Source of the DNA: a bacterium SCSIO 12696
GTDB taxonomy: Bacteria; Pseudomonadota; Gammaproteobacteria; Pseudomonadales; Porticoccaceae
Length of the DNA stretch: 64,000 bases
Direction: 5' to 3'
Assembly: GCA_024397955.1 (NCBI GenBank)
Contig: CP073744.1
Span: 1,984,001 to 2,048,000 of the forward strand
This document shows, piece by piece, positions 14,849-33,876 of this stretch (position 1 is its first letter; each line of letters begins with the position of its first letter). The position numbers were made by a program, and so were the translations under genes. The notes beneath the pieces are model-generated. The model did no database searches and was not told the DNA's origin. It worked only from the letters and a program-made list of their open reading frames with translations.

Positions 14849-14897
14849 GCCAGATATTCAGTTATCAAGCTAAAGCTGTTAAATAAAAGTGGTATCA

Positions 14898-17800: not shown

Positions 17801-17990
17801 CACTCTCGACCTGCAATTCGGTGTGCAAATACCCAGTGAATTTGGTGACAGCCAGATTACATTGGGTATCAATAATGTTGCTGATCGCGACCCACCTTCT
17901 CTAGGCATTAACCAGCGTCCTGGCTACGACCCTGCCGTTCACGATATACGTGGCCGGCAGCTGCTGGTTGCCTTCAAACATAAATTCTGA
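14898..17990 (+). CDS. TonB-dependent receptor with STN signalling domain
   Basis: A 1030-residue outer-membrane receptor. After the signal peptide (cleavage near VLA, residue 33) comes an STN domain (about residues 36-110: LDIPAQSLQSALIQLAIQSQ, then AIKGRYQLEQALRQILG and a beta strand). A short linker leads to the plug (about 140-270, with NIRGIGFASTLALINGRR and DGASAIYGSEAVGGVVNIVTRKGF) and the 22-strand barrel ending in LLVAFKHKF. STN receptors signal to FecR when they bind ligand. Upstream are the sigma and anti-sigma genes. The next gene is a paralogue without the STN domain. ATG 14898 is preferred to GTG 14889. The ligand is unknown. Confidence 0.94.
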   Translation: MNAAPNMLFSGKVIFAARILAASIAFAHQPVLAAKPTITLPPIELDIPAQSLQSALIQLAIQSQSSIIAPTNLVDGKTTQAIKGRYQLEQALRQILGDNNLRYRFSEDRRSVSIIAAPKKATPEPPPNQPEAPRQQIFEQLVTVGSRLPRSRIGHPLNSITPVSSIHFDNTAANGTVSITDTIRDLTINNGSAFINEQNNLAGTVQFNIRGIGFASTLALINGRRSGKSGLSDNGGAFFFDISHIPLNMISRIDVQKDGASAIYGSEAVGGVVNIVTRKGFSGLELSGSYTDASNESGNVSLALGDWEDESGYNLYINYFRQNRNNRTDFPWLTERLSHTDDLQNTVLASAAGSPGTYRQATFNTDTGLASEVASELAFPDPDCIEAGGVLRNSNCLHIFADQNSVLHEKRQLQIFAEANYQLNDATLIFTEVGFNNGRINRTRGPGNFNNGLVADSGRIFIPSDHPFNFFTAGSQPGELIYIDPSQWDNAIHNAVDLSCQCRVLGNEFNGVNSPEDRISDNDFARALIGIEYELGDSISFSASYLYSSSQWDLSTPFNYSAPVVNQLILNGRFNPFGTRIASPELISPKDNISRAGLSDDVFEVLRERDNTSTRQDQQVVDISITGEAFSLPAGTAGFALGTQLRREDFTLLNDPKRLNGTGGLRGTLNNISGQQRSWAYFAELMIPAASTLDIQLALRGENYNLESASDIGPKVAMRWEAQPWLALRGSFSRSFQAPSLRQISEARSASIINDPARPNPVTGELECTDSSRGGNTSSRTVGDPDLNSQLARNLSFGAVFTPTDESHIVLDYWQIDYRDLIVQDEGASQIVTNDCLDDGIPNDPRIERSAGGNILLVTSNFINSGELLASGFDISARHTATLSGGELELGLEASLVDEFLFDPANGDPIVNGAGSRNSLNRFSSVPELRANASLHWHSDYIYSSATLRYISDYENDQDNNSRIPSFVTLDLQFGVQIPSEFGDSQITLGINNVADRDPPSLGINQRPGYDPAVHDIRGRQLLVAFKHKF

Positions 17991-18055
17991 AAACCCCAAT
18001 CAATAAAAATCTTTATTGGTCATCTCAAAAAATTTATTAATTAAAAAATATTTTC

Positions 18056-18080
18056 AGGTTTTTTTAATTTGAGAACGTCC
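18056..18080 (+). promoter_or_regulatory. Probable ECF promoter of the second TonB receptor gene
   Basis: AGGTTTTT (18056-18063), 12 nt, then CGTCC (18076-18080), preceded by TTTTC and followed by TT. The same arrangement is found at 21156, 29459 and 32777. The motif is 167 nt before the ATG at 18247. Assigning it to the FecI-type factor at 13269 is inference. Confidence 0.6.
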
Positions 18081-18246
18081 TTCAGGTGCCAGTCAGAAAA
18101 ACTGTCGGCATAGGGGGAGTGGCGAAACAAATAAAACCGAGTGAGCTAAAAAAAGTTGCATTGGAATTTGGCGAACTCAACGCTTGGTTTTGCAAGCGCT
18201 ATCGCTACTGTTAATGACTAAAAAATTATTATATGGGGTCAACAGT

Positions 18247-21063
18247 ATGTCTAAATCAACACCAACGTATTTTCCACGAAAAGCTATTGCAGCGGCAGTC
18301 GGCAGTATAGTCTGTCTAACAGCCGGCCAAATCTTCGCTGAAGAAAGTGCCAAATCAGACGCGGTGCAGGAAGAAGTCGTTGTTACCGGGTCTCACATCA
18401 AACGCAGTAATTTGGAGGGCAGCGCGCCAGTACAAGTACTGGACCGCGCAACTATTTCTGCCGCTGGCGCAGCAACCGTTCAAGATCTGGTTATCGACCT
18501 GCCTGTGAACACCGGCACCATTATTAACGACGAACAAAGCAGTTTGGCGGGCACTACCCAGTTCAACTTGCGCGGTCTGGGCCTGGGCTCAACACTTACC
18601 CTGATCAATGGTCGTCGCGCCGGTAAATCCGCCGTTGCTGACGGCGGTGGTAACTTTTTCTTCGACATCAACCAGCTACCATTGGCGATGATTGACCGCA
18701 TCGATGTGCAAACCGATGGTGCATCGGCTATTTACGGTTCTGAAGCGGTTGCCGGTGTTGTTAACGTAGTTACCCGCAAAGGTTTTGAAGGCTTTGAGCT
18801 TTCCGCAAATTACGAAAACGCCACCAACTCTTCTGGCTCCTTGAACCTTGCCGGTGGTGCTTGGGGGGACAACGGCGGTTTTAATATTTACGCCACTTAC
18901 TACACACAGACTCGCAACAACCGCACTGACTTTGACTGGTTGCGTGAGCGTACTCTGCATGTTGGCGACCTTCAGGATACAGCACTGTCGTCAGCAAACG
19001 GGGCACCAGGCACGTATTTCCGCACAGAAGTTAACCCAGAGACTGGCGGAGTTCGCCAAGTTAGCGGAGCAGATGCTTTTCCTGACCCAGATTGTGTGGC
19101 AGCCGGAGGCATTTTACGTGGCAGTACTTGCCGCCATATTTTTGCCGACCAAAATGGCGTGATCCATGATTCAGATCGCTTCCAGGTATTCGCTGAATAC
19201 GAATACAACATTACCGAAACAATGAAAGCCTTTGGCGAATTCAGCGCCTCTAATAATGAAGTAGGCCGCACTCGCGGACCAGGCAACTACAGCAATGGTT
19301 TGATCGAAAGCAGTGGCCGCATCTTTATTCCCGGCGACCATCCCTTTAACTTCTTTATCGAAGACCCCGACAACCCAGAAGCTCTAATTTATATCGGCCC
19401 CGAAGACTGGGATAACAGTATCCACACAGGTGCTGATATATCTGGACGCGCACGTATTCTTGGCAACGAATTTAACGGCCGTAACTCCCCCGCTGACCGA
19501 CGCAGTGATATTCAAAACTTTCGCGCATTACAAGGTTTTTCAGTAGATATAGGGGAAAGCTGGAATGTAGAAGCCAGCTATATGGCGGCCCGTGCACTCT
19601 GGGATCTAACAACCAGCCTTGATTATGCTGCGCCAGTGGTAAACCAGCTGCTGATTGACGGGGAATTTAACCCATTCGGCACGCGGGTTGCCAATCCTAC
19701 ATTGGTATCGCCAAAAGATGGTGTCAGCGTAGCTGGCTTATCCGATGAGGTATTTGCGCAACTACTGGTACCTCAGACACAGTTTGCCCAACACGATCAA
19801 TTCGTAATTGATGTGGTTGCTGCCGGCGAAATTATGGACCTACCTGCAGGTTCGGTAGGTCTTGCCGTGGGCTGGCAGCGCCGCGATGAGCAATTCGACT
19901 TTACACCCAGTGCACTGCGCGGCGCAGGCCTGGGCGGCCTCAGTGGTAGAGTCTTCCCTCGTTCTGGTGAGCTGGATGTGGATGCGTACTTTGCAGAAGT
20001 AGCTATCCCTGTACTGGATAACGTGGAGCTGCAATTGGCTTTGCGCTACGAAGATTACGGATTTACTGACACGACCGACCCGAAAGTTGCCGCACGCTGG
20101 GATATCAATGACTACATTGCTCTGCGTGGCTCCTTTGGTAGCTCTTTCCAGTCGCCAACCGTATTGCAAACCAGTGAAGCTCGCGGTGCAGCCATCTTAG
20201 ATGACCCTGTAGGTGTAGACCCCGTAACAGGAGTACTGAGTTGCGGAGCAGAAGGCCAGGCAGGTAATACAGCGACACGTACGGTAGGTAGTGATGACTT
20301 GAGTCCACAAAGCGCTGATAACTATAACTTTGGGTTGATCATCAGGCCTACCGATGACCTGTCCATTGGGCTTGATTACTGGTCCTATGACTACACCAAT
20401 TTGATTTCATCAGACGAAGGGCCACAGGCGATCGTTCTAAATGACTGTTTAGACGATGGGATCCCCAATGATCCAAGGGTTCAGCGCACCGGTGGTGGCA
20501 ACATCATTTTGGTGACATCAAACTTTATTAACACTGCCAGCGTTGAAACCGATGGTGTTGACCTGAATGTGCGCTACGACATCGACACCGATGACTTGGG
20601 AAGCTTTGCCCTCGGCTTTAATATGAGCTACATCAACTCCTTCGATTTCCGCACCACTCCGACTTCTGAAGTAGAAGATGCCGTTGGCTCACGGAACTTC
20701 CTCAACCAGTTCCCATCCACACCTCAAACCCGGGGCAATATCACTATGGCCTGGAATCGGGACAACCTGTTCGGCAATGCAGCAGTACGCTATGTGGACA
20801 GCTACCTGAACGATCGCAATGACTTTACAATTGACTCGTTCACCACGCTAGATCTGCAATTTGGTGGAGAGTTCGGCCTTCTGGATGACGAAAGAACCAC
20901 CACCATCACTGCAGGCATCAAGAACGTTTTTGATGAAGACCCTCCCGCAATCGGCTTTAACGAGACTACCGGACAAGCTTCCGCAGGCAGACCCGGTTAT
21001 GACCCTGAAGTCGCCAATATTCGTGGGCGAATCGTTTATCTGGAACTAAAACAAAGGTTCTAA
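18247..21063 (+). CDS. TonB-dependent receptor, paralogue lacking the STN domain
   Basis: A 938-residue outer-membrane receptor. A signal peptide (to about residue 31, ending IFAEE) is followed directly by a TonB-box-like stretch VQEEVVVTGSHIKRSN and the plug (NLRGLGLGSTLTLINGRR, DGASAIYGSEAVAGVVNVVTRKGF). Plug and barrel are clearly homologous to the preceding receptor, including RNNRTDF, FADQN, SGRIFIPGDHPFNFF and RILGNEFNGRNSP. So the pair is one signalling and one transport receptor, probably for the same or a related ligand. The start at 18247 follows GGGG by 9 nt. A strong terminator lies just after the stop and an ECF-like promoter lies upstream. Confidence 0.94.
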   Translation: MSKSTPTYFPRKAIAAAVGSIVCLTAGQIFAEESAKSDAVQEEVVVTGSHIKRSNLEGSAPVQVLDRATISAAGAATVQDLVIDLPVNTGTIINDEQSSLAGTTQFNLRGLGLGSTLTLINGRRAGKSAVADGGGNFFFDINQLPLAMIDRIDVQTDGASAIYGSEAVAGVVNVVTRKGFEGFELSANYENATNSSGSLNLAGGAWGDNGGFNIYATYYTQTRNNRTDFDWLRERTLHVGDLQDTALSSANGAPGTYFRTEVNPETGGVRQVSGADAFPDPDCVAAGGILRGSTCRHIFADQNGVIHDSDRFQVFAEYEYNITETMKAFGEFSASNNEVGRTRGPGNYSNGLIESSGRIFIPGDHPFNFFIEDPDNPEALIYIGPEDWDNSIHTGADISGRARILGNEFNGRNSPADRRSDIQNFRALQGFSVDIGESWNVEASYMAARALWDLTTSLDYAAPVVNQLLIDGEFNPFGTRVANPTLVSPKDGVSVAGLSDEVFAQLLVPQTQFAQHDQFVIDVVAAGEIMDLPAGSVGLAVGWQRRDEQFDFTPSALRGAGLGGLSGRVFPRSGELDVDAYFAEVAIPVLDNVELQLALRYEDYGFTDTTDPKVAARWDINDYIALRGSFGSSFQSPTVLQTSEARGAAILDDPVGVDPVTGVLSCGAEGQAGNTATRTVGSDDLSPQSADNYNFGLIIRPTDDLSIGLDYWSYDYTNLISSDEGPQAIVLNDCLDDGIPNDPRVQRTGGGNIILVTSNFINTASVETDGVDLNVRYDIDTDDLGSFALGFNMSYINSFDFRTTPTSEVEDAVGSRNFLNQFPSTPQTRGNITMAWNRDNLFGNAAVRYVDSYLNDRNDFTIDSFTTLDLQFGGEFGLLDDERTTTITAGIKNVFDEDPPAIGFNETTGQASAGRPGYDPEVANIRGRIVYLELKQRF

Positions 21064-21073
21064 AACCACCACA

Positions 21074-21116
21074 AAAAATACGGCCATCAAAACAAATTTG
21101 ATGGCCGTATTTTTTT
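21074..21116 (+). terminator. Rho-independent terminator after the second TonB receptor gene
   Basis: Arms 21076-21091 and 21097-21112 pair perfectly (core ACGGCCATCAAA with TTTGATGGCCGT) and run into T residues to 21116. Confidence 0.92.
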
Positions 21117-21155
21117 ATTGACATACTGGACCTCGATAAAAAGGCAAAGCTTTTC

Positions 21156-21180
21156 AGGTTTTTCAGGCTCACTTCCGTCC
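21156..21180 (+). promoter_or_regulatory. Probable ECF promoter of the beta-propeller gene cluster
   Basis: AGGTTTTT (21156-21163), 12 nt, CGTCC (21176-21180). The flanks TTTTC before and TT after match the site at 18056 exactly, and the spacing is identical. It lies after a terminator and 147 nt before the ATG at 21327, so it likely starts a new unit. Confidence 0.6.
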
Positions 21181-21326
21181 TTATTTTTAGCAACAAGACC
21201 ATAAGCACCGTCCTCCTGAAAGTAAGGCAAGAATATGCTTTTTACTATTCTGCCAGGTGCTATAAGCTAAAATTTTGCTACTCGGCTTTATTTCAACCTG
21301 TCACCCAAACTCTATCGGCGAATTTC

Positions 21327-23687
21327 ATGAAAATAGTCATTCCTTTGCTTGCTCTGTTTGCTTTGTGCACTACACCCGGCTTGGCCGCCGAAAAAACCTA
21401 CCTGATCGACGGCAACGATCGCGACGGCACCCGCCGCATTACCCCTCTGGATGACGGCGGCTTTGTGCTGACCGGCTGGACCAATGGTAATGCCGACAAA
21501 AAAGACGGTGAAGGCTGGCTGGTGCGAGTGGATAAAAAAGGCAAAATTCGCTGGCAGCAACGCTTCCCCAACCAACTGACTACTGGGCGTGGCTCTCAAG
21601 CCTCCGGGCATGCTGTAGACAGTGACGGTACTATTATTATGGCGTTGGAGGAATACCGCAGCAAAGGCCCTTACCGGCCCGATGGCTCCAACGGCCGCGG
21701 CACCTTAATGCGCTTCTCCGCCGACGGCAAATTGCTGCACAAAAAAGTCATGGGCAGCTCCGGTATTAACGTACTCGACATTATCAAACCCGTGGGCGAC
21801 GGCACTTATCTGATCGCCGGTGAAACCACCTCCCCCATTCAAAAAGGCTACGACGGCTGGATTTTTAAAACCGACGCCGACTTTAATGTGATTTGGGACA
21901 CCAAGGTCGGCGGCTTTGGCGCCGAGCGCTTTAACGATGTGCTGTTTACCGACGATGGCGGTTTTCTGGCGGCCGGGCGCACCACCACCGATGAAGGTGG
22001 CTTCCGCGCCTGGATCGTCAAGCTGGACAGCAACGGCAAAGTACAGTGGCAAAAGCGCTACCGGGAGGACCAGTACGAGAACACCATTCGTGAGATTCTG
22101 CCGGTCAAGGACGGCGGTTGGGTGTTTACCGGCTTCACCAAAAACCACCCCAGTGATCCGGACACTCGCAACGCCTGGATAGCGCGCATAGACACCCAGG
22201 GTGAATTGCTGTGGGACAAAGCCATTGGCGGCGCCGGCTCCGACGTCACCTATGTAATGACACAGACCAACGACGGCACTTATCTGGCAGCGGGCTCCAC
22301 CCAAAACCAGACGGGCGGCACCCGCGACGCCTACGTGATCGCCTTTGATGCCTCAGGCAAAGTGCTCTGGGAGCGCACCTTTGGCAAGCCGGAAACCAAC
22401 GAAGTGATTCGCGGCATTACCCCCTATAAAAAATCAGGCTTTGTGCTGTCGGGCAACTATCAGGATCCGCGCACTGGCCAGCAGGACTCCATGCTGATTA
22501 AAGTCGACAAGGTAAAAACCAAAGCGAAAAAAGCCGCCGCTCCCAAAGCGGATAACACCTTTTTGATCGGCGCGGAAGGCCGCGATGGTGTACGCCGCAA
22601 TACGCCTCTGGACGACGGCGGTTTTGTGCTGTCTGGCTGGACCGAAGCCGGTGCTTCTCGCAAAGAGGGTAAAGCCTGGATTGTGCGCATCGATAAAAAA
22701 GGCAAGATTGTCTGGAAGAATGTTCACCCCAACGAGCTGGGCAATAACCGCGGCTCTCATATGGGTGCACATACGCTGGATGTTGACGGCAACCTGGTTT
22801 ATAACCTGGAAGAGTTCCGTTCCAAGAACGGCAAACCACCGGGTATCACTGGCCGCTCAACCCTGCATCGGGCTACCCTCGACGGCAAAATTCTGCACAA
22901 GAAAATCATGGGTGGCGCGGGCACCGATATCATCGACATTATGATCCCACAGGGAGATGGCACCATCGTAATGGGCGGCGAGACCACCTCGCCGGATGGC
23001 AAGTCTTACAGCGGCTGGATTTTCAAAGTCGACAAAGACTTCAATGTAATCTGGGACCGCAAACTGGGCGGCCTGGGTTACGAGCGTTTTAATGGCCTGA
23101 TTCAAACCGCTGACGGCGGCTTTCTGGCCGTGGGCCGCACCTCCGGCCGCCTGGGGCGCTACCGCGGCAAACTGTGGCGTCTGGATGCCGAGGGCAATGT
23201 GATCTGGGAACAGCGCTACCGGGAAGATGAATACTACGCCAGCTCCTTCCGCGAGGGCATTGAGCTCGATGACGGCAGCTTTATCTTTAACGGCTGGGTC
23301 TTTAACGAAGAATCCAACAGCGAAGACCCACGCAATATGATTATTGGCCGGGTTACCGCTGGCGGCACTCTGATGTGGGCGAAAACTCTGGGCGGCCCCG
23401 GTGACGACATCTCCTTCGGTCTGATCCAGACTGATGACGGTACTATTCTGGCGGCGGGTCAGGAGCAATCCAGCATCCGTGACAACGCCGATGCCTGGGT
23501 GGTGGCGTTTGATAAAAATGGCGATATCCTCTGGCAGAAACGCCACGGCTACAAAGATACCCACGATGTGATTCGCGGCCTGACCGCTTATAAGAAAAAC
23601 GGCTATATGCTGACAGGCAATGCGGAAAACAAGAAAACCGGTGAGCACGACGCACTGCTGGTAGTCGTGGAAGACATCAATAAGTAA
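21327..23687 (+). CDS. Exported beta-propeller-like repeat protein with internal duplication
   Basis: A 786-residue protein with a signal peptide (cleavage after GLA, residue 20) and no membrane helix. Residues 21-395 and 410-786 are two copies of the same domain. Each holds about six blades of the form DDGGFVLTGWT...WLVRVDKKGKIRWQQRF, the pattern of blade repeats with a buried aromatic. The copies are joined by a Lys/Ala-rich linker (VKTKAKKAAAPKADN). No enzyme motif is seen. Such secreted propellers usually bind polymers or proteins. It heads a tight cluster with an FGE-fold protein and an SMP-30 protein behind an ECF-like promoter. Function is not assigned. Confidence 0.85.
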   Translation: MKIVIPLLALFALCTTPGLAAEKTYLIDGNDRDGTRRITPLDDGGFVLTGWTNGNADKKDGEGWLVRVDKKGKIRWQQRFPNQLTTGRGSQASGHAVDSDGTIIMALEEYRSKGPYRPDGSNGRGTLMRFSADGKLLHKKVMGSSGINVLDIIKPVGDGTYLIAGETTSPIQKGYDGWIFKTDADFNVIWDTKVGGFGAERFNDVLFTDDGGFLAAGRTTTDEGGFRAWIVKLDSNGKVQWQKRYREDQYENTIREILPVKDGGWVFTGFTKNHPSDPDTRNAWIARIDTQGELLWDKAIGGAGSDVTYVMTQTNDGTYLAAGSTQNQTGGTRDAYVIAFDASGKVLWERTFGKPETNEVIRGITPYKKSGFVLSGNYQDPRTGQQDSMLIKVDKVKTKAKKAAAPKADNTFLIGAEGRDGVRRNTPLDDGGFVLSGWTEAGASRKEGKAWIVRIDKKGKIVWKNVHPNELGNNRGSHMGAHTLDVDGNLVYNLEEFRSKNGKPPGITGRSTLHRATLDGKILHKKIMGGAGTDIIDIMIPQGDGTIVMGGETTSPDGKSYSGWIFKVDKDFNVIWDRKLGGLGYERFNGLIQTADGGFLAVGRTSGRLGRYRGKLWRLDAEGNVIWEQRYREDEYYASSFREGIELDDGSFIFNGWVFNEESNSEDPRNMIIGRVTAGGTLMWAKTLGGPGDDISFGLIQTDDGTILAAGQEQSSIRDNADAWVVAFDKNGDILWQKRHGYKDTHDVIRGLTAYKKNGYMLTGNAENKKTGEHDALLVVVEDINK

Positions 23688-23706
23688 AACGCCAGAGAAC
23701 AGGACA

Positions 23707-24636
23707 ATGGCAGCAGGCAAGCAGACAACAACACTTGCCTCGCTGCTTTGCCTGCTGTCTTGTATTTCACCACTGTGGGCATCGGATAACCTGAGCGGAG
23801 AAATGATCGTCATCCCCGGTGGCTCTTTCACAATGGGCGACCTGGCAGGCACAGGGAATGCCGATGAACGCCCTCTTCGCCAAATCAGTATTCAGCCCTT
23901 TGCCCTGGCCAAGCACGAAGTCACCATCGCGCAGTTCAAGCACTTTGCAAAAACCAGTAATTACCGTTCCACAGCTGAACAGTGCCAAGTGTTCCATTTT
24001 GCGCCACAGCCCACCTGGAGCTGGAACAAGCAAACAGACTGGCAAAGCGTGAGCTTTGATAGCTGGCAGCAACCGGATAACCACCCGGTAGTATGCGTCA
24101 GCTTTAGTGATGTGATGGCCTATATCCAATGGCTCAACCAAAAAGGCGACGGCGGATTTCGCTTGCCCACAGAAGCCGAGTGGGAATACGCCGCTCGTGC
24201 AGGCAGCCAAAACCCACATTTCTACAGGGACGTAAAAAATCAATGCGACTTTGCCAATGGCGCCGACGCCACACAGTTGCCAGAGGGGGCAACCTGGAAA
24301 GAAGCGGTTGAGTGCACGGATGGTCATATCTTCACCGCACCGGTCGGTAGTTTTACCGCCAACCAGTTTGGTTTGCACGATATGCTGGGCAACGTTTGGG
24401 AGTGGGTGGCGGACTGTTATACCGATAGCTATCAAAACCTGCCTCTGGATGGCTCCGCTCAAGACAGGCCGAATTGCCAGACACGGGTACGACGGGGTGG
24501 CGGCTGGTATGAGCCGCCATATTGGCTGCGCACCGCCAATCGGGCTCCAGCCGATATTGACAAAGCCACCGCTCGCCTGGGGTTTCGGCTTGCACGAGAC
24601 TTACCAACGCAACACAAAGCAATAGCAAATAAATGA
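23707..24636 (+). CDS. Exported FGE-sulfatase-fold (SUMF1/EgtB/PvdO-type) protein
   Basis: A 309-residue protein with a signal peptide (to about residue 26, WASDN). The fold is shown by MIVIPGGSFTMGD (33-45), LAKHEVTIAQFKHFA (67-81), FRLPTEAEWEYAARAG (151-166), GLHDMLGNVWEWVADCY (222-238) and RRGGGWYEPPYWLRTANR (262-279). In true formylglycine-generating enzymes the RGG segment is followed by two copper-binding Cys residues; neither is present here, so sulfatase activation is unlikely. No sulfatase gene is in the window either. It lies 20 nt after the propeller gene and overlaps the next gene by ATGA, so the three are an operon. Confidence 0.88.
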   Translation: MAAGKQTTTLASLLCLLSCISPLWASDNLSGEMIVIPGGSFTMGDLAGTGNADERPLRQISIQPFALAKHEVTIAQFKHFAKTSNYRSTAEQCQVFHFAPQPTWSWNKQTDWQSVSFDSWQQPDNHPVVCVSFSDVMAYIQWLNQKGDGGFRLPTEAEWEYAARAGSQNPHFYRDVKNQCDFANGADATQLPEGATWKEAVECTDGHIFTAPVGSFTANQFGLHDMLGNVWEWVADCYTDSYQNLPLDGSAQDRPNCQTRVRRGGGWYEPPYWLRTANRAPADIDKATARLGFRLARDLPTQHKAIANK

Positions 24637-25544
24637 ATAGACTCTTGGGAAAAACGCTGCTACTCGCCACCTTATTGTGGGCTACCAGCCCTGCTGTACA
24701 GGCGGGAGAGTCTCTTGTTGCCGAAGGCGCACTGCCTGAACGGCTGGCCATGGGTTTCAGTTTTACCGAGGGGCCATCCGTAGACCGGTTCGGCAATATC
24801 TATTTTTCCGATATCCCCAATAGTCGCATTTACAAGTGGTCTGTGGAGGAAAAGCGCCTGTCTCTTTTTCACCCCAACACCCATCAGGTGAACGGCACCT
24901 GGTTTGGTCACGATGGCCGCTTGTATGCCTGCCAGTGGGGCAAAACCCGTATCGTTGCCTTTGGGCTCGATGGATCAGAAGATGTGATTGCGGATCAACA
25001 CGCTGGCAAGCCCTTTAACCGCCCCAACGACTTGTGGATGGACCCGAAAGGCGGCATCTACTTTACCGACCCCAATTCCCGCGATACCAAGCCCCTGTCT
25101 CAAGACGGCGAGCACGTGTTTTACATCACCCCGGATCGCAGCCGGGTGATCAAAGCCGCCGATGGTTTCAAACGCCCCAATGGCATTATCGGCACCCGGG
25201 ATGGTAAAACCCTTTACATCGCCGACCGGGGAGCCAAACAAACCTGGCGCTACCGCATTCAGCCCGACGGCCGCCTTACGGATAAAACCTTCCACGCTGC
25301 GGTGGGTTCCGACGGCATGACTCTGGATGAGCACGGCAACCTCTACACCACCACCGACGCGGTTTATGTATACGCGCCAGATGGCCGCCTGCTTGAGCGC
25401 ATCGCCATCACCCCGGAAAAGCCCCGCAATGTGGTGTTTGGCGATGTGGATAGCAAAACCCTGTTTATCACCGCCGGCACCCGTTTTCTGGCACTAAAGA
25501 TGAACGTGGCGGGCATGTACGGGCCTCATACCAATGACCATTAA
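24633..25544 (+). CDS. Exported SMP-30/gluconolactonase-like hydrolase
   Basis: A 303-residue six-bladed propeller of the SMP-30/gluconolactonase/LRE family. The signal peptide ends VQAGES (about residue 23). The calcium-site residues appear as FTEGPSVDRFGNIYFSDI (the early Glu), FNRPNDLWMDPKGGIYFTDP (Asn and Asp) and the later GSDGMTLDEHGNLY. Members hydrolyse lactones or other esters. Its start codon overlaps the FGE-fold stop (ATGA), so translation is probably coupled. A structured element lies right after the stop (25551-25606). The substrate is not known. Confidence 0.92.
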   Translation: MNRLLGKTLLLATLLWATSPAVQAGESLVAEGALPERLAMGFSFTEGPSVDRFGNIYFSDIPNSRIYKWSVEEKRLSLFHPNTHQVNGTWFGHDGRLYACQWGKTRIVAFGLDGSEDVIADQHAGKPFNRPNDLWMDPKGGIYFTDPNSRDTKPLSQDGEHVFYITPDRSRVIKAADGFKRPNGIIGTRDGKTLYIADRGAKQTWRYRIQPDGRLTDKTFHAAVGSDGMTLDEHGNLYTTTDAVYVYAPDGRLLERIAITPEKPRNVVFGDVDSKTLFITAGTRFLALKMNVAGMYGPHTNDH

Positions 25545-25550
25545 TCGATG

Positions 25551-25606
25551 TCAGCTCTGCCAACAAGGCGCCGCAGCGCTTGCGGCCTTTGCTACGCCGG
25601 AGCTGA
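25551..25606 (+). other. Nested inverted repeats after the SMP-30 gene
   Basis: TCAGCTC (25551-25557) pairs with GAGCTGA (25600-25606). Inside is a second stem, AAGGC-GCCGCA with TGCGG-CCTT (about 25565-25589). It may terminate the operon, but no T tract follows. A separate 14-bp palindrome, TTCGCTGCAGCGAA (25667-25680), lies downstream. Confidence 0.4.
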
Positions 25607-25730
25607 ATGCAATAGAGGCCGCTCCACCATGAAACTAATTTTTTCTCGTTTAAGGGGTCATAACCCTTCGCTGCAGCGAACAGCGTAAAACAACAAATTA
25701 CTGACTACTCATCAACAAGAGATTCACTGA

Positions 25731-26156
25731 ATGAAAGCCTTGACCATTATGTTACTGCGAATTTCCACCGGACTGCTGCTGGTTGTTTGGGGGGTGTACA
25801 AGCTCATTACGCCCGATAAAGCCATCAGCATATCCAACCGCTACTATTCCGGCATGATTAGTGCCGAAAGTATCCAGATGTGGTTGGGACTGGCGGAAGT
25901 GGTTCTGGGGCTTATGGTGTGCCTGGGTTTGTTGCGCCGCTTCACCTACCCACTGCAGTCCATTGTACTGTTTTTCGGTGCAGCGCTGATTTGGCAGCAC
26001 CTCCTCGACCCCCTGGGACTTTGGCTGGTAGAACCGGAAAATCGCAAAATACTGTTTTTCCCATCGCTTTGCGTATTCTTTGCCACTCTGGTTCCCCTGG
26101 TTTTCAAAGGGGACGATCGCCTGGCTCTGGATCACAAATTTGGTTTGAAACTCTAG
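25731..26156 (+). CDS. DoxX-like membrane protein
   Basis: A 141-residue protein with four predicted membrane helices (about residues 5-23, 48-66, 73-92 and 108-124). The first helix and the loop LLRISTGLLLVVWGVYKLITPDK match DoxX-family proteins, small inner-membrane proteins of mostly unclear role, often in redox or sulfur settings. It has its own 187-nt upstream gap and is followed 93 nt later by the D-aminoacylase-like gene. It may be carried along by the cluster rather than be functionally part of it. Confidence 0.75.
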   Translation: MKALTIMLLRISTGLLLVVWGVYKLITPDKAISISNRYYSGMISAESIQMWLGLAEVVLGLMVCLGLLRRFTYPLQSIVLFFGAALIWQHLLDPLGLWLVEPENRKILFFPSLCVFFATLVPLVFKGDDRLALDHKFGLKL

Positions 26157-26249
26157 TGCCTTCTACACAACATTTTTCAACACAATGACGGTGAATAGTT
26201 GGCAAGTTATTCATGCCAGCTTATAAGAACTGTTATTCATAGAGTCGAA

Positions 26250-27833
26250 ATGATGAAAAAAACCATTACCCTCCTATTAAGCTGCTTGCTAATCAGCGCC
26301 TGCTCTCAGGAAAGCCAGACGCCAACGCTTCTGGAAGTAGACACACTGATCGTCAACGGGCTGGTGTATTCCGGTGATATTGCTGACCCTCAAACCCTGG
26401 CAGTGGGTATTACCGATGACACCATTGTGTTCGTTGGCGACACAACCAGTCAGGCCGTTATTGCTCAACAAACCATTGATGCCGACGGAATGATGGTATT
26501 GCCAGGATTTATCGACCCACACACCCACTCTGCCGGCGACCTGAAAAGCACCGACAGAAACGCCAATCTTAACTACCTGACTCAAGGTGTGACCACGGTT
26601 TTTAACGGCAATGATGGGGGCGGCAGCGCTGATATTGCAGCGCAATTCGGCCTTATGGAAAAACAGGGAATCGGCACCAATGTAGCGCTGTTTGTGGGTC
26701 ATGGCGATATCCGCGAACAAGTGATGGGGCGAGATAACCGCGATCCCACACCGGAAGAGATGGAAAGCATGAAAGCCCTGGTTGACAGCGCTATGGACGA
26801 GGGTGCATTGGGTTTATCGACCGGGCTGTTTTACGTGCCCGACACCTATTCCACAACCGCAGAAGTGGTGGAACTTGCCAAAGTAGCTGCCGCTAAAGGC
26901 GGTATTTACGAAAGCCATATTCGCGATGAAAGCAACTACAACATTGGCGTTAAAGCCGCTATTGCAGAGCTATTGCAGATTGGCCGCGAAGCGAAGATTC
27001 CGGTTCATATCGCCCACATCAAAGCGCTGGGAGTTGATGTCTGGGGCCAAAGCGCTGACATTATCAAGATGGTCGAAGAAGCCCAACAGAATGGGCAGGC
27101 AGTTACTGCAGACCAATACCCATGGCGCGCATCCGGCACCGGATTGCACAAGGCAACTGTACCAAGCTGGGCTTTGGCCGGTAGCGAAGCAGAAATCCAA
27201 GCTCGCTTTAAAAACCCTGAATTGATGCCTGAAATACGCGCGGCGATGACGGAAAACATACGCCGGCGGGGCGGGCCCGATTCATTACTTATCGTGACCG
27301 CGCTGGATGAAGCATTGCTGGGTAAAACAATCGCCGACCTATCCAAACAGTGGAGCTTGGACCCAGTGGATACCGTACTGAAAGTATTGGCGCTGGGCGT
27401 GAATAACGGTGGTGCTCGGGTGGCTTCGTTTAATATGAGCCCTGACGATATCGCAAATTTTATGGTGCAACCCTGGGTAATGACCTCATCGGACGGCACT
27501 AACGGCCACCCCCGCAAGTACGCCAGCTTTCCCACTAAATACCGTCACTACGTATTGGAAAAGTCTTTAATGGACGTTCCCACTTTTGTGCACCGCAGCT
27601 CGGCTCAAGTGGCAGAAACCTTTGGCATTAAAAATCGGGGTTACATCAAGCCTGGCTATTTTGCCGATATTTCAATTATTGACAGCGAACAATTTAAACC
27701 GGCTGCAACTTTTCGGGAATGGAATCAATTAACCCCTGGAGTTATCCATCAATGGGTTAATGGCGTTCAGGTTATCAACAATGGCGAGTATACCGGCGCC
27801 CTGCCCGGGCGTGGCCTGCGCAAAGGCCTATAG
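26250..27833 (+). CDS. N-acyl-D-amino-acid deacylase-like amidohydrolase, lipoprotein
   Basis: A 527-residue enzyme of the D-aminoacylase/amidohydrolase family. The N-terminus MMKKTITLLLSCLLISAC is a lipoprotein signal with the modified Cys at residue 18, so it is membrane-anchored in the periplasm. Metal-site pieces are GFIDPHTHSAGDL (HxH), a Cys-free active site with HIRDESNYN, and HIAHIKALG. Family members release D-amino acids or split related amides and hydantoin-like rings. ATG 26250 is chosen because the longer reading frame would bury the signal sequence. It lies among M20, creatininase and TonB receptor genes. Confidence 0.9.
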   Translation: MMKKTITLLLSCLLISACSQESQTPTLLEVDTLIVNGLVYSGDIADPQTLAVGITDDTIVFVGDTTSQAVIAQQTIDADGMMVLPGFIDPHTHSAGDLKSTDRNANLNYLTQGVTTVFNGNDGGGSADIAAQFGLMEKQGIGTNVALFVGHGDIREQVMGRDNRDPTPEEMESMKALVDSAMDEGALGLSTGLFYVPDTYSTTAEVVELAKVAAAKGGIYESHIRDESNYNIGVKAAIAELLQIGREAKIPVHIAHIKALGVDVWGQSADIIKMVEEAQQNGQAVTADQYPWRASGTGLHKATVPSWALAGSEAEIQARFKNPELMPEIRAAMTENIRRRGGPDSLLIVTALDEALLGKTIADLSKQWSLDPVDTVLKVLALGVNNGGARVASFNMSPDDIANFMVQPWVMTSSDGTNGHPRKYASFPTKYRHYVLEKSLMDVPTFVHRSSAQVAETFGIKNRGYIKPGYFADISIIDSEQFKPAATFREWNQLTPGVIHQWVNGVQVINNGEYTGALPGRGLRKGL

Positions 27834-27906
27834 AGGAAAATTGATCGAGAGCAGAACGTTGGTTATTTGCTAAGTATTGTGTTCAAAAAAAACGGAGGGA
27901 AAAACG

Positions 27907-29343
27907 ATGAGACATCGCTGGTTTTTACTAAGCTCACTATGGCTGTTTGCTTTAAGCCACACCTCAGCTGTCGCTGACGATGGCACCGACGAGTTGCTGA
28001 CCTGGATGGATAGCCGCTATGAACAAACTGCCCATGCAGCGCGCTCTATCTGGGAATTCGCCGAGCTTGGCTACCTGGAAGACAAAAGCTCGGCTCTGTT
28101 GCAGGGCCAATTGCGTGACGCCGGCTTTGCTATCGAACGAGGAGTCGCCGGCATTCCCACATCCTTTATCGCCAGTTACGGCAGCAAAGGCCCCATAATT
28201 GCCATCCTGGCAGAGTTCGATGCTCTGCCGGGTTTAAACCAGGATTCTGTGGCCCATCGCAGTTTGATTGAAGGCAAACATGCGGCCCATGGCTGCGGTC
28301 ATAACCTGTTTGGCGCAGGCTCCGTGAGCGCAGCCATCGCCGTAAAACGTTGGCTGGAAAGCACCGGGCGCCCCGGTGTGATTCGCCTTTACGGCACACC
28401 GGCAGAGGAAGGCGGTAGTGGCAAAGTGTATATGGTGCGCGAGGGACTATTTGAGGATGTGGATTTTGCCATTCACTGGCACCCCGGTAGCAGCAACAAC
28501 GCCGATGCGCGCAGCTCGCTGGCCAACCGCTCTGCCAAGTTCCGTTTTCACGGTCGCTCAGCCCACGCTTCGGGCTCGCCACACAAAGCCCGGTCTGCCT
28601 TGGACGGTGTTGAAGCTTTTAATCATATGGTGAACCTGATGCGTGAGCACGTGCCTCAGGAAACCCGCATTCATTACGTAATTACCAAAGGGGGTTTAGC
28701 GCCCAACGTCGTGCCGGACTTCGCCGAAGTTTTTTATTACGTACGTCACCCGGAATCTGAGACATTGAAACAATTGTGGACACGGGTTGAGGCCGCCGCT
28801 CAAGGCGCAGCTCAGGGTACTGGGACTCAAGTGGAATGGGAGATTATCCACGGCAACCATCCGTTGCTTCCGGTTGAAGCACTATCCAAAGCCGCACACA
28901 AACACCTGACCCGAGTAGGAGGCATAACCTACGATAAAGAGGAGCGCCAGTTTGCTGAGCAAATTTACGCCACTCTGGACAGCCCAAGGCTGGCACTGGG
29001 CAGTGAACAGGAAATACAACCCTACCAATTGAAACGTGGTGGCGGCTCTACCGATGTTGGCGATGTCAGTATGGTGGTGCCCACTGTACGCCTGTCTACC
29101 GCTACTTACGTTCCCGGTACATCGTCCCACAGCTGGCAATCCGCTGCTGCTGCGGGCATGTCTATTGGCTTTAAAGGAGCACACAATGCCGCCAAGGCAA
29201 TGACATTAACAGCCATTGAGCTCTATCAGAACCAAGCATTGCGAACAGCGGCGCGTAACGAATTTGATGAACGCCGCGGCCCTAACTTCAAGTATGAGGC
29301 CCTGCTAGGAGATCGCGAACCGCCTTTGGACTATCGAAAATAA
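27907..29343 (+). CDS. Exported M20-family amidohydrolase (AbgB-like)
   Basis: A 478-residue M20D-type metalloenzyme with a signal peptide (to about residue 24, SAVADD). Metal and catalytic motifs are AEFDALPGL, HGCGHNLFGAGS, PAEEGGSGKVYM and FAIHWHPGS; the insertion NRSAKFRFHGRSAHASGSPHKARSALDGVEAFNHM is the dimerisation domain. AbgB-type relatives cut the amide of p-aminobenzoyl-glutamate, and other members cut N-acyl amino acids or indole-3-acetyl-amino acids. GGAGGG lies 7 nt before ATG 27907. It is 73 nt after the deacylase gene, likely in one unit. Being exported is unusual for AbgB-like enzymes. Confidence 0.9.
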   Translation: MRHRWFLLSSLWLFALSHTSAVADDGTDELLTWMDSRYEQTAHAARSIWEFAELGYLEDKSSALLQGQLRDAGFAIERGVAGIPTSFIASYGSKGPIIAILAEFDALPGLNQDSVAHRSLIEGKHAAHGCGHNLFGAGSVSAAIAVKRWLESTGRPGVIRLYGTPAEEGGSGKVYMVREGLFEDVDFAIHWHPGSSNNADARSSLANRSAKFRFHGRSAHASGSPHKARSALDGVEAFNHMVNLMREHVPQETRIHYVITKGGLAPNVVPDFAEVFYYVRHPESETLKQLWTRVEAAAQGAAQGTGTQVEWEIIHGNHPLLPVEALSKAAHKHLTRVGGITYDKEERQFAEQIYATLDSPRLALGSEQEIQPYQLKRGGGSTDVGDVSMVVPTVRLSTATYVPGTSSHSWQSAAAAGMSIGFKGAHNAAKAMTLTAIELYQNQALRTAARNEFDERRGPNFKYEALLGDREPPLDYRK

Positions 29344-29353
29344 TTCCCACCAC

Positions 29354-29384
29354 GTAGGGTCTCTCTGCCTAATAGAGGCCCTAC
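29354..29384 (+). terminator. Hairpin, probable terminator after the M20 gene
   Basis: GTAGGGTCTCT (29354-29364) pairs with AGAGGCCCTAC (29374-29384) with one mismatch; TTTC follows. The stop codon is 8 nt upstream. Confidence 0.65.
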
Positions 29385-29458
29385 TTTCAGCTCCATTTCA
29401 CTCCCACCATAGCCACCTCTTATACCCAGCCTAAAAAATTGAATAAATCTTATTGTTA

Positions 29459-29483
29459 AGGTTTTTTTACACTCTATTCGTCT
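29459..29483 (+). promoter_or_regulatory. Probable ECF promoter of the third TonB receptor gene
   Basis: AGGTTTTT (29459-29466), 12 nt, CGTCT (29479-29483), preceded by GTTA as at 32773. It lies 95 nt before the ATG at 29578. Confidence 0.58.
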
Positions 29484-29577
29484 GGTTTATGGATGCCTTA
29501 ATTGCTTGGCACGTTAACCAGCTGCCAATTTATTGGTATTCGTAGTTCTAATAAGTAAATTCACAACGAGGTGGGAT

Positions 29578-32500
29578 ATGTTCAAGAAGCAAAAGCTTTC
29601 TGTAGCCATTGCAGTAGCAGGGAGCAGCTTGCTGCTGTCAAATACAGCAATAGCCGAAGAAAACGAAGAAGCAGTCGTTGACGAGGAAATCGTCGCTGTC
29701 GGCACACAAATTAAGGGCGCGAATATTGAAGGTACGCTGCCTGTTACTGTACTCAGCGCGGAGCAATTAGACAGCTCCGGTATTGCAACCGGTGAAGAGC
29801 TACTGCGTTCGATCCCTCAAATTGGTTCTATCGGCTTCGGTAACTCAAGGGCCGGTTCCGTGGGTGTGAACACCGCTCGCGGTGATGTGTCTTCTTTTAA
29901 CCTGCGCAGTATTGGTGAAGGCAACACCCTGGTGCTGATCAATGGCCGCCGTATGGTGTTACACCCAATTTCACAAACCAGCCGTTTCGACTCCGGCATT
30001 CCTATTGTTTCATCGAACGCTAACACGTTGCCTGTGGCCGCACTTGAGCGTGTTGAAGTACTTCGCGATGGTGCTGGTGCCTTGTATGGCGCAGACGCGG
30101 TTGCCGGTGTGATTAACTACCAGGTTAAAGACGATTACGAAGGCTCAGAGGTTACCATTCGTTACGGCGCTGAAGATGGCACTGGTCGACAGGATATTAC
30201 CTTAAGCGGCGCTGCAGGTTTTTCATTCAATGACGGCAGAACAAACCTTGTTTTATCCGGCAGCTATGCCGATAGAACTGGCGTAAATTCCGGCGAATAC
30301 GACTTCACTCGTGACCAGGACTTGCGCTCAAGAGCCCCTGAAGGCTTTGCTACAACTGCCTTTGACAATCGTACCGGCAGTGAAGCTCATGCCAATGTGG
30401 TGTTTGGTGGCGGAGTAGGACGCTTTCACTTGCGTCCTACCAACTTAATTGGCGACGATGGCGTCAGCATTGTTGAAGACTCGAGCGAATGTGGCGGTCG
30501 CGGCCTGGCACCAGGCTCTACCATTTTTACCGGCCCCGGCAGCCAAAGCCTATGTCTGGATGGCGGAGGCCAAAACCGCGCCCTGCGCACTAACCGTAAT
30601 GAAAACCGTACACTGGTTCCAGACGTCAAACGCTTTAATGTTTTCGCCAAGCTGACTCATGAACTGGAAAGCGGTGCCGAGCTATACGGTGAGTTCTCTT
30701 ACTACGATTCCGAAGCACGGCGTGAGCGTGAGCAAGGTGGCCCCCTGTCTACCGGTGAAGTATTTGTTTCAGCGGACTACTTTTTCAATCCCTTTGGCCC
30801 CACCACATTGGCTGACGGCAGTGTAAACCCCAACCGTATTCCAGGGTTGGATACTTCCATTGTTCCCGAAGCAGGTGTTGGCTTTCAGCTGGATACCATT
30901 CAACTGTCTGACGTAGGCAACCGCAGAGCTGAAGTAAATGGCGAAAGCTACCGTTTCCTGGCGGGTATTACCGGTGACTGGGGCAACTGGAACTACGACA
31001 CCGCTGTTCTTTACAGTGAAGCGGACGTAAACGATACCACCAGCAATCGTGTTGATACTACACTGTTCCAGGCCCAGCTGAATAACACACCCGGAGCGTA
31101 CAATATTTTCTCTGGGCTGAACCCAGCAGACGCAGGCAGCTTAGTCGACCTGACGCCTAATCCACAAAGCGCGATTGACCCATTCCTTACCAGTGTAACC
31201 CGTGAAGCCAAGACTACTTTGAGCTTGGTGGATTTCCGTTTATCCAACCCATCTGTGTTTTCATTGCCTGCCGGCGATGCAGCACTGGGCCTTGGTGTTG
31301 AGTATCGGGAAGAGGATCTTGTTGAGGACAACTCGGCCAACCTGGACGGTTCAGCACCTTTCGTCGACACACTGGGGCCCAATGGCACTGTAATCAACCC
31401 TTCTAATGTTATTGGCAGTAGCCAGCGTTTGGATTTCGCCGGTGAGCGCGATGTGTTTTCCGCTTACGCAGAGCTGATTTTGCCCATTGCCAGAGACCTT
31501 CCTGGCGCAAACAGCATTGATGTACAGCTGGCGGCGCGATACGAAGATTTCAGTGATTTTGGCAATATTACAACACCAAAAATTGCAATTTCCTGGTATC
31601 CGGTTGAATGGCTGCAATTCCGAGCTGCGTTCTCAGAGGGCTTCCGAGCACCGAACCTGGTACAAACCAACAACCCACAGAGCACCGTTTCTACTTCGAC
31701 GGAAGACTTTGCACTGGGTGAACTACTGGGCACCGGTGACCTGTCCGACAGCGGTTTGGACGCCACAACCACCGTTGAGGTGCGTGGTGGTAACCCCAAT
31801 CTGGAAGCAGAAGACAGTGAAAATACCAGCTTTGGTTTCGTACTGACGCCTCTCGAAGGCCTCACAGTTACCGTAGATTACTGGGAAATCGAAACTGACG
31901 GTACCGTAGGTAGCTTTAACGACGAGAACCAATCTCGCCTGGATGCATTGCTGCGCCGCTCTGGAGGTTCTAACCCCAATGTAATTCGCGCAGCACCTTC
32001 TGCAGAAAACCCAATCGGTGAAATTCAACAGGTTAACAGTATCTTTGAAAACCTGAATACACGCTCAGTGTCGGGTATTGACTTCAGTGCATTCTATAAT
32101 TTCGATACTTCAATCGGGAGCTTTGATCTGCAGCTGAATGTTGCTCAATTGGATGAATTTAGCCAAGAGCCAGGCGGCCAAGCTGGCCTGTTGTTGGCAG
32201 CAGGTGCTACTCCAGAATCTGTTGGTGTTGAAGACAGGGTCGGTCTTGAAGGCTTCCCGGAATACCGACTCACCGGTACTGTAACCTGGAACAGCAATGA
32301 CGATCTGTGGGGCGCATCACTGTTTCTACGTCATATTGACAGTGTGATTGACCCCAATATCGTCGTCGATGATGTACCTTTTGAAATTGACTCGTACACG
32401 ACTGCCAACCTCTCTTTGGTAAGGCGCGATATTTTTGGTGAAAACAGCTCGCTGCGTCTGTCTGTTAACAACATAACGGATGAAGAACCACCACTTGCCG

Positions 32501-32589
32501 ACCAAGCCTTTGGCTTTGATGCAGAAATGCATTCAAGCCGTGGACGCTATGTGGCTCTTACCTTTAAGAGATCGTTTGGCGCCAATTAA
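29578..32589 (+). CDS. TonB-dependent receptor (third, distinct subtype)
   Basis: A 1003-residue outer-membrane receptor with a signal peptide (to about residue 26, AIAEEN) and a short N-terminus without STN domain. TonB-box-like VDEEIVAVGTQIKGANIEG is followed by the plug (FNLRSIGEGNTLVLINGRRM, DGAGALYGADAVAGVINYQVK) and a long barrel ending YVALTFKRSFGAN. It belongs to a different subgroup from the two receptors at 14898 and 18247 (ASI/NTLP and ATGEELLRSIPQIG segments). AGGTGGG gives a good ribosome binding site at 8 nt. It lies next to hydrolases and the creatininase pair and shares the ECF-like promoter motif. Confidence 0.95.
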   Translation: MFKKQKLSVAIAVAGSSLLLSNTAIAEENEEAVVDEEIVAVGTQIKGANIEGTLPVTVLSAEQLDSSGIATGEELLRSIPQIGSIGFGNSRAGSVGVNTARGDVSSFNLRSIGEGNTLVLINGRRMVLHPISQTSRFDSGIPIVSSNANTLPVAALERVEVLRDGAGALYGADAVAGVINYQVKDDYEGSEVTIRYGAEDGTGRQDITLSGAAGFSFNDGRTNLVLSGSYADRTGVNSGEYDFTRDQDLRSRAPEGFATTAFDNRTGSEAHANVVFGGGVGRFHLRPTNLIGDDGVSIVEDSSECGGRGLAPGSTIFTGPGSQSLCLDGGGQNRALRTNRNENRTLVPDVKRFNVFAKLTHELESGAELYGEFSYYDSEARREREQGGPLSTGEVFVSADYFFNPFGPTTLADGSVNPNRIPGLDTSIVPEAGVGFQLDTIQLSDVGNRRAEVNGESYRFLAGITGDWGNWNYDTAVLYSEADVNDTTSNRVDTTLFQAQLNNTPGAYNIFSGLNPADAGSLVDLTPNPQSAIDPFLTSVTREAKTTLSLVDFRLSNPSVFSLPAGDAALGLGVEYREEDLVEDNSANLDGSAPFVDTLGPNGTVINPSNVIGSSQRLDFAGERDVFSAYAELILPIARDLPGANSIDVQLAARYEDFSDFGNITTPKIAISWYPVEWLQFRAAFSEGFRAPNLVQTNNPQSTVSTSTEDFALGELLGTGDLSDSGLDATTTVEVRGGNPNLEAEDSENTSFGFVLTPLEGLTVTVDYWEIETDGTVGSFNDENQSRLDALLRRSGGSNPNVIRAAPSAENPIGEIQQVNSIFENLNTRSVSGIDFSAFYNFDTSIGSFDLQLNVAQLDEFSQEPGGQAGLLLAAGATPESVGVEDRVGLEGFPEYRLTGTVTWNSNDDLWGASLFLRHIDSVIDPNIVVDDVPFEIDSYTTANLSLVRRDIFGENSSLRLSVNNITDEEPPLADQAFGFDAEMHSSRGRYVALTFKRSFGAN

Positions 32590-32776
32590 TTTGGTCACAT
32601 AACCTGTGTTGATGCCGGTCGGGATTTGTTAAAACTGTTGAAAGCAGAAAAGCTGAAATACGCTATCTGAATGAACATTTTTTTCAAATTCTGATTCGGC
32701 TGACACACAAAACTAAGTTCCAATTGCTCTATCCCTCGCAGTAACCAAAAAAATTAGAAACCATCAAAAGACGTTA

Positions 32777-32800
32777 AGGTTTTTCCATCCAAACACGTCT
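32777..32800 (+). promoter_or_regulatory. Probable ECF promoter of the creatininase-like gene pair
   Basis: AGGTTTTT (32777-32784), 11 nt, CGTCT (32796-32800), preceded by GTTA. The spacing is one nucleotide shorter than in the three other sites. It lies about 200 nt before the ATG at 33001. Confidence 0.5.
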
Positions 32801-33000: not shown

Positions 33001-33861
33001 ATGAAAATTTTTCGCCGGTTCCTTTTATGCCTTTGCTACAGCCTACTTTTTTCAAGCCAGGTTGTGGCTGCCGACCTGAGTACCGAAGAAATTTGGGCTT
33101 TAGAGCGCCCTATCCCAGCACACGACACGGTTGTTATGGAAGACATGACCTGGATGGAAGTGCGAGACGCCATAAAATCTGGCAAAACAACGGTGATTAT
33201 TCCCACCGGTGGTGTAGAGCAAAAGGGGCCATACAGTGTTATTGGCCGCCACAATCTCTCCCTAAAAGTAACTACGCAAAAAATTGCCAAAAAATTGGGT
33301 AATGCCCTGGTGGCGCCAGTAGTACCTTTTGTTCCCCAAGGCTCTATTGACCCACCCAGTCGGCACATGCGCTACCCGGGCACCATCAGTGTCAGCGAAG
33401 AAAATTTTGTTAACTTGCTGGTAGATATTGCCAACAGCCTGCGCATGCACCGCTTTGAAAATATTATTCTGCTCGGCGACAACGGTGGCAACCGAAAAGG
33501 ACTCGAAAGAGCTGAGAAAATTCTCACAGAGCAGTGGCAAAACAAGTCTGCTCGGGTACATTATATTCGTGAGTTTTACGATAACCCACGATGGAAGGCT
33601 TGGCTAAAAAGCCGCGGGATTATCGAAGTTTCAGAAGGCCTACATGATGGCTTTCGCGCCAGCTCAGTTATGCTTTTGATCGATCCAATGGCAGCACGCA
33701 TGCCACAGCGTATTGCCGCCGATAAATTTTCCATCAATGGTGTGAGCTTGTTACCAGTTGACAGAACCATCAAGATTGCCAAAGAGTTTGTGGATTACCG
33801 TACGGATATTACTGTAGCGGCGATCCGCAGAGAAACTTCATCGACAGACGAAACCCAGTAA
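33001..33861 (+). CDS. Exported creatininase-fold protein (first of a pair)
   Basis: A 286-residue protein with a signal peptide (cleavage near VVAAD, residue 24). It shows the creatininase-family framework: IIPTGGVEQKGP (67-77), HN (84-85), RYPGTIS (124-130), ILLGDNGGN (156-164). Creatininase relatives hydrolyse cyclic or short amides, including MftE which trims a peptide. In the classical enzyme the metals are held by Glu34, His36, Asp45, His120 and Glu122. Here Glu is kept (73) but the next ligand is Lys75, Asp45 becomes His84 at identical spacing, and His120 becomes Asn161. Activity is therefore uncertain. ATG 33001 replaces an in-frame TTG. Confidence 0.85.
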   Translation: MKIFRRFLLCLCYSLLFSSQVVAADLSTEEIWALERPIPAHDTVVMEDMTWMEVRDAIKSGKTTVIIPTGGVEQKGPYSVIGRHNLSLKVTTQKIAKKLGNALVAPVVPFVPQGSIDPPSRHMRYPGTISVSEENFVNLLVDIANSLRMHRFENIILLGDNGGNRKGLERAEKILTEQWQNKSARVHYIREFYDNPRWKAWLKSRGIIEVSEGLHDGFRASSVMLLIDPMAARMPQRIAADKFSINGVSLLPVDRTIKIAKEFVDYRTDITVAAIRRETSSTDETQ

Positions 33862-33876
33862 AAGAGGCACCTGACT

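Follow-up and report, generated by a model that had tools for sequence, protein, structure and literature searches.

Which factor reads a motif that recurs ahead of four transcription units in the chromosome of bacterium SCSIO 12696, a gammaproteobacterium of the family Porticoccaceae? The motif lies in a window of 64,000 nucleotides, bases 1984001-2048000 of a single 2.93 Mb contig (CP073744.1), among genes for TonB-dependent receptors and hydrolases. A sequence-only reading had taken the sites for promoters of the extracytoplasmic function (ECF) sigma class and for a local regulon of the FecI-type sigma factor encoded at 13269. Our results support both proposals by inference, as related sites precede 5 of 5 following receptors of a sister unit and the motif is not seen in a locus that has homologous genes but lacks the sigma factor. 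The motif is probably the promoter of the 13269 sigma factor, which would drive the four units through cell-surface signalling (CSS), and we put the probability of this reading at roughly 0.85.

The motif, AGGTTTTT-N11/12-CGTCY, matches the window at 18056, 21156, 29459 and 32777 and nowhere else, always on the + strand and with the spacers of 12, 12, 12 and 11 originally read by eye; no site in the window differs from it by exactly one mismatch. The flanks noted earlier are also there, with TTTTC before the motif and TT after CGTCC at 18056 and 21156, and GTTA before it at 29459 and 32777. The start codons served are those of receptor 2 (18247), a propeller protein (21327), receptor 3 (29578) and the first of two creatininase-family proteins (33001), and the distances from the end of CGTC to these ATGs are 167, 147, 95 and 201 nt, respectively. 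All four sites have the form of an ECF promoter, AGG-N16/17-CGTCY, with a CGTC-like -10 element and a -35 element about 16 bp upstream. PvdS-type iron-starvation promoters read TAAAT-N16/17-CGT; here the -35 is AGGTTTTT and not TAAAT, and the agreement is limited to CGT. The putative -35 element is probably better written as TTMAGGTTTTT within the frame AGG-N16/17-CGTCY. A sigma-70 scan of 17900-33100 gave 6 sites against 12.4 in shuffles, none of them at the four motif sites.

Such a set is rarely reached at random. None of 100 dinucleotide shuffles of the window reached four matches (mean 0.02). Because the motif had been chosen by eye, and thus post hoc, we also ran all 6+4 dyads over 12 upstream regions; the best score was four regions, obtained by this motif only, in three registers, and 150 Markov resamplings of the test gave a best of 2 regions (78 runs) or 3 (72 runs), never above 3. 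With a spacer of 10-13, the motif matches the whole genome at 7 places and the reversed pattern does so at 2. Four of the 7 fall within this 14.7 kb, a clustering equalled in only 5 of 400,000 trials that placed 7 points at random, and the remaining three sit in stop-to-stop frames (297, 160 and 257 aa), of which two are antisense. The genome scan thus did not reveal the many copies at unrelated genes that were to count against a local regulon. When relaxed to AGGTTTT-N12/13-CGTY, the pattern has 12 genome matches (5 for the reversed pattern), namely the four and 8 others that all lie in frames of at least 120 aa, although the open-frame criterion carries the caveat that site 21156 is itself covered by an open frame, one that continues the propeller gene upstream of its ATG. 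The looser AGGTTT-N12/15-CGTC is background, since its 20 matches compare with 30 for the control. We consider it confirmed that the motif is real, forms a cluster and is all but confined to this locus. Strict-motif counts over 112 family genomes, in which the window genome ranks highest (7), were not used as evidence, the reversed control also reaching 7 in two genomes.

Independent support comes from within the genus. The 13269 sigma factor has six further matches in its own genome, four of them at E 1e-11 or better, and the nearest (L085; 36% identity) lies about 28 kb upstream at the head of a similarly built unit, in the order sigma, FecR, a receptor with an STN match just under the cut-off, and a receptor without STN. 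Upstream of this last receptor stands TTGAGGTGATACCGTTTTTGTTCGTCT. At E 1e-100 the same receptor has relatives in 4 of 111 other family genomes, and the signal is present in two congeners (G095 and G096) and not in the two more distant genomes (34% identity; L092, L093). Compared with the L085 unit, that of G096 is 87% identical in sigma, 68% in FecR, 76% in receptor 1 and 40% in receptor 2; that of G095 is 62% identical in sigma, 44% in FecR and 57% in receptor 1, after which come three receptors without an STN match. STN (Pfam, E 1e-3) is present in the first receptor of G095 and was not found in that of G096. TTGAGG-N16-CGTCT precedes all five following receptors of the three genomes (1 + 1 + 3), 60-70 nt ahead of the ATG, and is kept even though identity between genomes is no more than 39-40% in the receptor after the first. 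The three first receptors and the three sigma genes of the sister units have no AGG-N16/17-CGTC within 300 nt upstream.

Aligned, the window sites read TT(C/A)AGGTTTTT-N11/12-CGTC(C/T) and the sister sites TTGAGG-N16-CGTCT, with a T run after AGG in 4/4 of the former and 0/5 of the latter. Residues 125-153 of the window sigma factor (region 4) show one difference from P0002, a 70% identical relative, and clear differences from the sister sigmas, a divergence that would be in line with the different bases after AGG. The pattern TTTGAGG-N16/17-CGTCY has 9 matches in G095 against 0 in the control, of which three make up the receptor cluster, three are identical copies elsewhere and three are single. 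The identical copies, of TTTGAGGCGCTTCATCAAGGCGGCGTCC (G095:C1:1448470, 2653284 and 3000881), probably belong to a repeated or mobile element. In the window genome this pattern matches once, at the sister site (control 2). In G096 it also matches once (control 1), but not at the sister site, which reads GTTGAGG there.

It is conceivable that the sites are ECF promoters read by another sigma factor, for example the sister sigma L085, or by both, and that the circuits cross-talk. The core TTNAGG-N16/17-CGTCY is indeed common to the two sets, and the sister unit is merely some 28 kb off, but the T run and the different region 4 set the two apart, the window sites are next to their own sigma unit, and the two congeners keep the sister unit, yet the window motif occurs there at background (2 and 1 matches). 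We consider this alternative unlikely. That the motif is no promoter but the binding site of a classical regulator co-regulating the four units, such as the TetR-type protein at 12564 whose gene adjoins that of the sigma factor, is less probable still. The motif is not palindromic, the spacing of its halves varies by 1, its orientation to the genes is fixed, and the sister set has only the two ends in common, whereas the gap between the TetR-type and sigma genes contains a different, perfect palindrome. The 16-bp palindrome in question, CAGAATGATCATTCTG (13164-13179; start of the TetR-type gene read as 13148), may be a TetR operator and could govern the amount of sigma factor. Chance, or common descent of the AT-rich upstream DNA, would draw on the paralogy of receptors 1 and 2 (49%) and on the T run within the motif. 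We regard it as hardly credible in view of the shuffle, dyad and clustering tests and of the observations that the four regions agree little outside the motif, that the downstream genes differ in kind and that receptor 1 is without the motif.

A fifth site may precede fecR. The partial match seen there before, and described as weak, is real (TTCAGG-N16-CGTCT from 13796) and fits the merged consensus better than first thought. In eight stretches of the genus (334,014 strand-bases, 2 kb of overlap being counted twice), TTNAGG-N16/17-CGTCY occurs 10 times, at the nine source sites of the consensus and once before the window fecR. By our arithmetic, chance would give about 1.3 hits at equal base use, so the single extra hit matches expectation and the count lends the fecR site no support; what supports it is its location in the short gap between sigma and fecR. 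With a mere 16 nt between CGTC and ATG, we leave it at about even odds that this is a promoter. The fecR of G095 is likewise preceded by AGG-N16-CGTCT, with ATG in place of TTG before it, and no site was found before the fecR of L085 or of G096. Overall, AGG-N16/17-CGTC is present in the 300 nt upstream of 11 of 25 genes (four window targets, five sister receptors, and fecR of the window and of G095) and absent from that of 14.

A comparison with Endozoicomonas sp. G2_1 (L046) shows the same kind of genes without the sigma factor. Nine homologous genes are present, at 48-77% identity: M20 peptidase (77%), symporter (70%), propeller (68%, two genes), receptor 2 (66%), creatininases (64-65%), amidohydrolase (62%), FG-GAP protein (58%) and gamma-glutamyltranspeptidase (48%). 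No sigma or FecR match was found at E 1e-8 in the 22.7 kb of this locus, and the closest sigma relative in the genome is 26% identical. AGG-N16/17-CGTC is absent from the 300 nt before each of 13 genes there, and the strict motif is absent; two AGGT-N15/16-CGTC matches, at 21806 and 22677, lie beyond the catabolic genes. Coming from a single genome, this absence agrees with sigma dependence without proving it. A histidine kinase and a sigma-54-type response regulator are encoded directly upstream of the receptor. Sigma-54 sites are not above chance in L046 or in the window (the best intergenic L046 candidates rank 58, 59 and 106), so the case for sigma-54 control there comes solely from the neighbouring regulator genes. 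The propeller protein is one 786-aa chain in the window (21327-23687) and two adjacent genes of 406 and 450 aa in Endozoicomonas (L046:12914-15489).

The sigma factor has no relative in 111 other family genomes at E 1e-30 or in 368 other class genomes at 1e-28, and a genome-contig scan with the single sigma protein gave none. A protein search (82 candidates) returned one relative, P0002, on a 10.7 kb contig, and a plasmid search returned 9 records of 33-37% identity. With the propeller protein as probe, no relative was found in 389 other genomes of the order or in 195 other relatives of G848. Two metagenome-assembled genomes, one of the Sphingomonadales and one of the Woeseiaceae, each have a receptor-2-like gene (43%) close to a gene for an M20 peptidase, the latter sharing 63-65% identity with the window enzyme (L051:3748-9652 and L057:5642-10331), so that the pairing of receptor and peptidase recurs. 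No Rfam family reached its gathering score in 12500-43000 or in L105/L106.

In favour of recognition by the 13269 sigma factor, the genes for sigma, FecR and the STN receptor lie directly upstream of the target units. Several observations weigh against it. The distance from GG to CGTC is about 2 nt below that of GGAAC-N16-CGTC promoters (PMC6767563), unless the -35 begins at TTM, and the window leaders of 95-201 nt compare with 60-70 nt in the sister unit. Receptor 1 and the sigma gene have no site in their upstream 300 nt, and the symporter and gamma-glutamyltranspeptidase genes, part of the set homologous to Endozoicomonas, have no good one. The sigma factor's own motif is known from one genome. 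Elsewhere, AGG-N16/17-CGTC was found within 500 nt (or the available DNA) before the receptor match in none of 18 loci (L047-L064; 37-48% identical), including L047-L049, where no site is present though sigma and FecR adjoin the receptor, and in neither of the family loci L092 and L093 (34% identical). Three other, more distant FecI units of the window genome (L086-L088) also have no such site. As the units of L086-L088 and L047-L049 go without it, the signal is not a general mark of FecI systems. The merged consensus has 2 hits in the 654,318 strand-bases of the 19 loci L046-L064 (L054 and L064), not before a receptor.

The promoter reading suggests a mechanism, for which we infer recognition, start sites, signalling and substrate from the arrangement described above. 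TTMAGGTTTTT would be the -35 and CGTCY the -10 element of an ECF promoter. Receptor 1, with its STN domain, would sense a ligand and, via FecR, release or activate the sigma factor. The sigma factor would then start transcription a few bases past CGTC at its four target units (receptor 2, the propeller/hydrolase operon, receptor 3 and the creatininase pair) and perhaps, as feedback, at fecR too. The outcome would be ligand-induced extra receptors and hydrolases for one probably non-iron, peptide- or amide-like substrate. We would also give an even chance to a broader picture, in which two paralogous FecI circuits of one genome are separated by their promoters, which share TTNAGG-N16/17-CGTCY and differ in the T run after AGG, a difference to which a diverged region-4 helix would correspond. 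The window circuit would have grown from receptors to a non-iron catabolic set, and the Endozoicomonas set would be a natural swap of regulator class.

The genes concerned are listed in Table 1. The sigma factor has regions 2 and 4 only, as expected of an ECF sigma, and scores above the NCBIfam TIGR02937 sigma70-ECF cut-off. The FecR-type regulator beside it has Pfam matches to FecR (76 bits) and DUF4880 (31.4 bits), FecR_C (22.5) being just under the cut-off, and the STN domain of receptor 1 (residues 69-111) scores 32.4 bits against a Pfam cut-off of 28.4. The two regulators fall below the NCBIfam cut-offs for the E. coli equivalogs (69.7 of 260 bits for FecI, 107.6 of 385 for FecR), and by these scores they are predicted to be the same kind as E. 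coli FecI/FecR and not the same protein. Within the presumed operon, the genes for DoxX, amidohydrolase and M20 have no AGG-N16/17-CGTC within 300 nt upstream. On the minus strand, a run at 37167-41908 encodes FG-GAP/ASPIC, gamma-glutamyltranspeptidase and symporter proteins. Since the Endozoicomonas cluster has homologues of these, the catabolic set probably extends to 41.9 kb. Downstream of another FecI-FecR-receptor unit of the same genome (L086:3592-10791) comes a gamma-glutamyltranspeptidase that shares 52% identity with the window enzyme.

Table 1 Genes and predicted or candidate promoter sites of the locus, in window positions
Feature	Position	Strand	Basis or remark
FecI-type ECF sigma factor, 174 aa, Sigma70_r2 + Sigma70_r4_2	13269..13793	+	Pfam, NCBIfam; proposed motif reader
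Candidate fifth site, TTCAGG-N16-CGTCT	13796..13822	+	before fecR; 16 nt from CGTC to ATG
FecR-like sigma regulator, 336 aa	13838..14848	+	Pfam, NCBIfam
TonB-dependent receptor 1, N-terminal STN signalling domain	14889..17990	+	Pfam
Predicted promoter site 1, TTCAGGTTTTT-N12-CGTCC	18053..18080	+	before receptor 2; motif scan
TonB-dependent receptor 2, no STN found, 49% identical to receptor 1	18247..21063	+	Pfam
Predicted promoter site 2, TTCAGGTTTTT-N12-CGTCC	21153..21180	+	before propeller/hydrolase operon; motif scan
Presumed operon: propeller (PQQ_2), FGE-like, SMP-30/gluconolactonase-like, DoxX-like, amidohydrolase, M20 peptidase	21327..29343	+	open reading frames, Pfam
Predicted promoter site 3, TTAAGGTTTTT-N12-CGTCT	29456..29483	+	before receptor 3; motif scan
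TonB-dependent receptor 3, no STN found	29578..32589	+	Pfam (longer frame from 29533)
Predicted promoter site 4, TTAAGGTTTTT-N11-CGTCT	32774..32800	+	before creatininase pair; motif scan
Two creatininase-family proteins in tandem	33001..34719	+	Pfam
Weak candidate only, AGGT-N16-CGTT (CGTT, not CGTC)	41943..41966	-	before symporter, gamma-glutamyltranspeptidase and FG-GAP run; no AGG-N16/17-CGTC match

From a broader perspective, promoters of FecI-type sigma factors can be hard to define, as for S. meliloti FecI (PMC6180224, available in part). A testable consensus can be drawn from the four strong sites of this locus together with the five sister sites of three genomes, and a related sigma pair with different -35 sequences is suited to asking how paralogous signalling circuits stay apart. 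The catabolic gene set tied to a ligand-sensing receptor offers a handle for finding the substrate. We found no description of the window consensus in the literature at title and abstract level, in a search that did not use the motif letters and covered few subscription journals. Taken together, the system appears to be a CSS regulon with an unusual -35 element and a catabolic, apparently non-iron target set.

Among known systems, E. coli FecI-FecR-FecA shares the order of sigma, FecR and a TonB receptor with a signalling domain, with the ECF sigma presumed to act on receptor promoters in the part of the source available (PMC9249621). It differs in that the window sites precede further receptors and hydrolase operons and not directly the signalling receptor, and in that the window targets look catabolic, not iron-related. 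In the same partial source, the proposed -35 element of HasI (G-G-G-T-T-T, TTTACGGGTTT) resembles the AGGTTT of the window, and the anti-sigma gene hasS is on record with its own sigma-dependent promoter, as may hold for the window fecR; that system serves haem uptake, and the available part of the account describes no multi-operon regulon (PMC9249621). A -10 of CGTC and a spacer of 16 +/- 1 bp are shared with ECF41 promoters (TGTCACA-n16-CGTC), whose -10 is called comparable to that of many ECF promoters, whereas the ECF41 -35 is another, and ECF41 has a fused regulatory domain and no FecR, to judge from the accessible text (PMC3426412). CGTC is widespread in the part of a Streptomyces sigma-E table that we could consult, with spacers of 16-17 bp (PMC6767563). 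In S. meliloti, fecI, fecR and the TonB receptor gene follow the same order, and no promoter motif was identifiable before fecR or the receptor according to the excerpted report (PMC6180224), whereas the window has a clear multi-site motif. The closest parallel in gene order and in TTNAGG-N16-CGTCY before the following receptors is the sister unit (L085, L105-L107, L106), which differs in having TTGAGG without the T run and in that, in the stretches examined, only receptors (and perhaps fecR in G095) carry the site.

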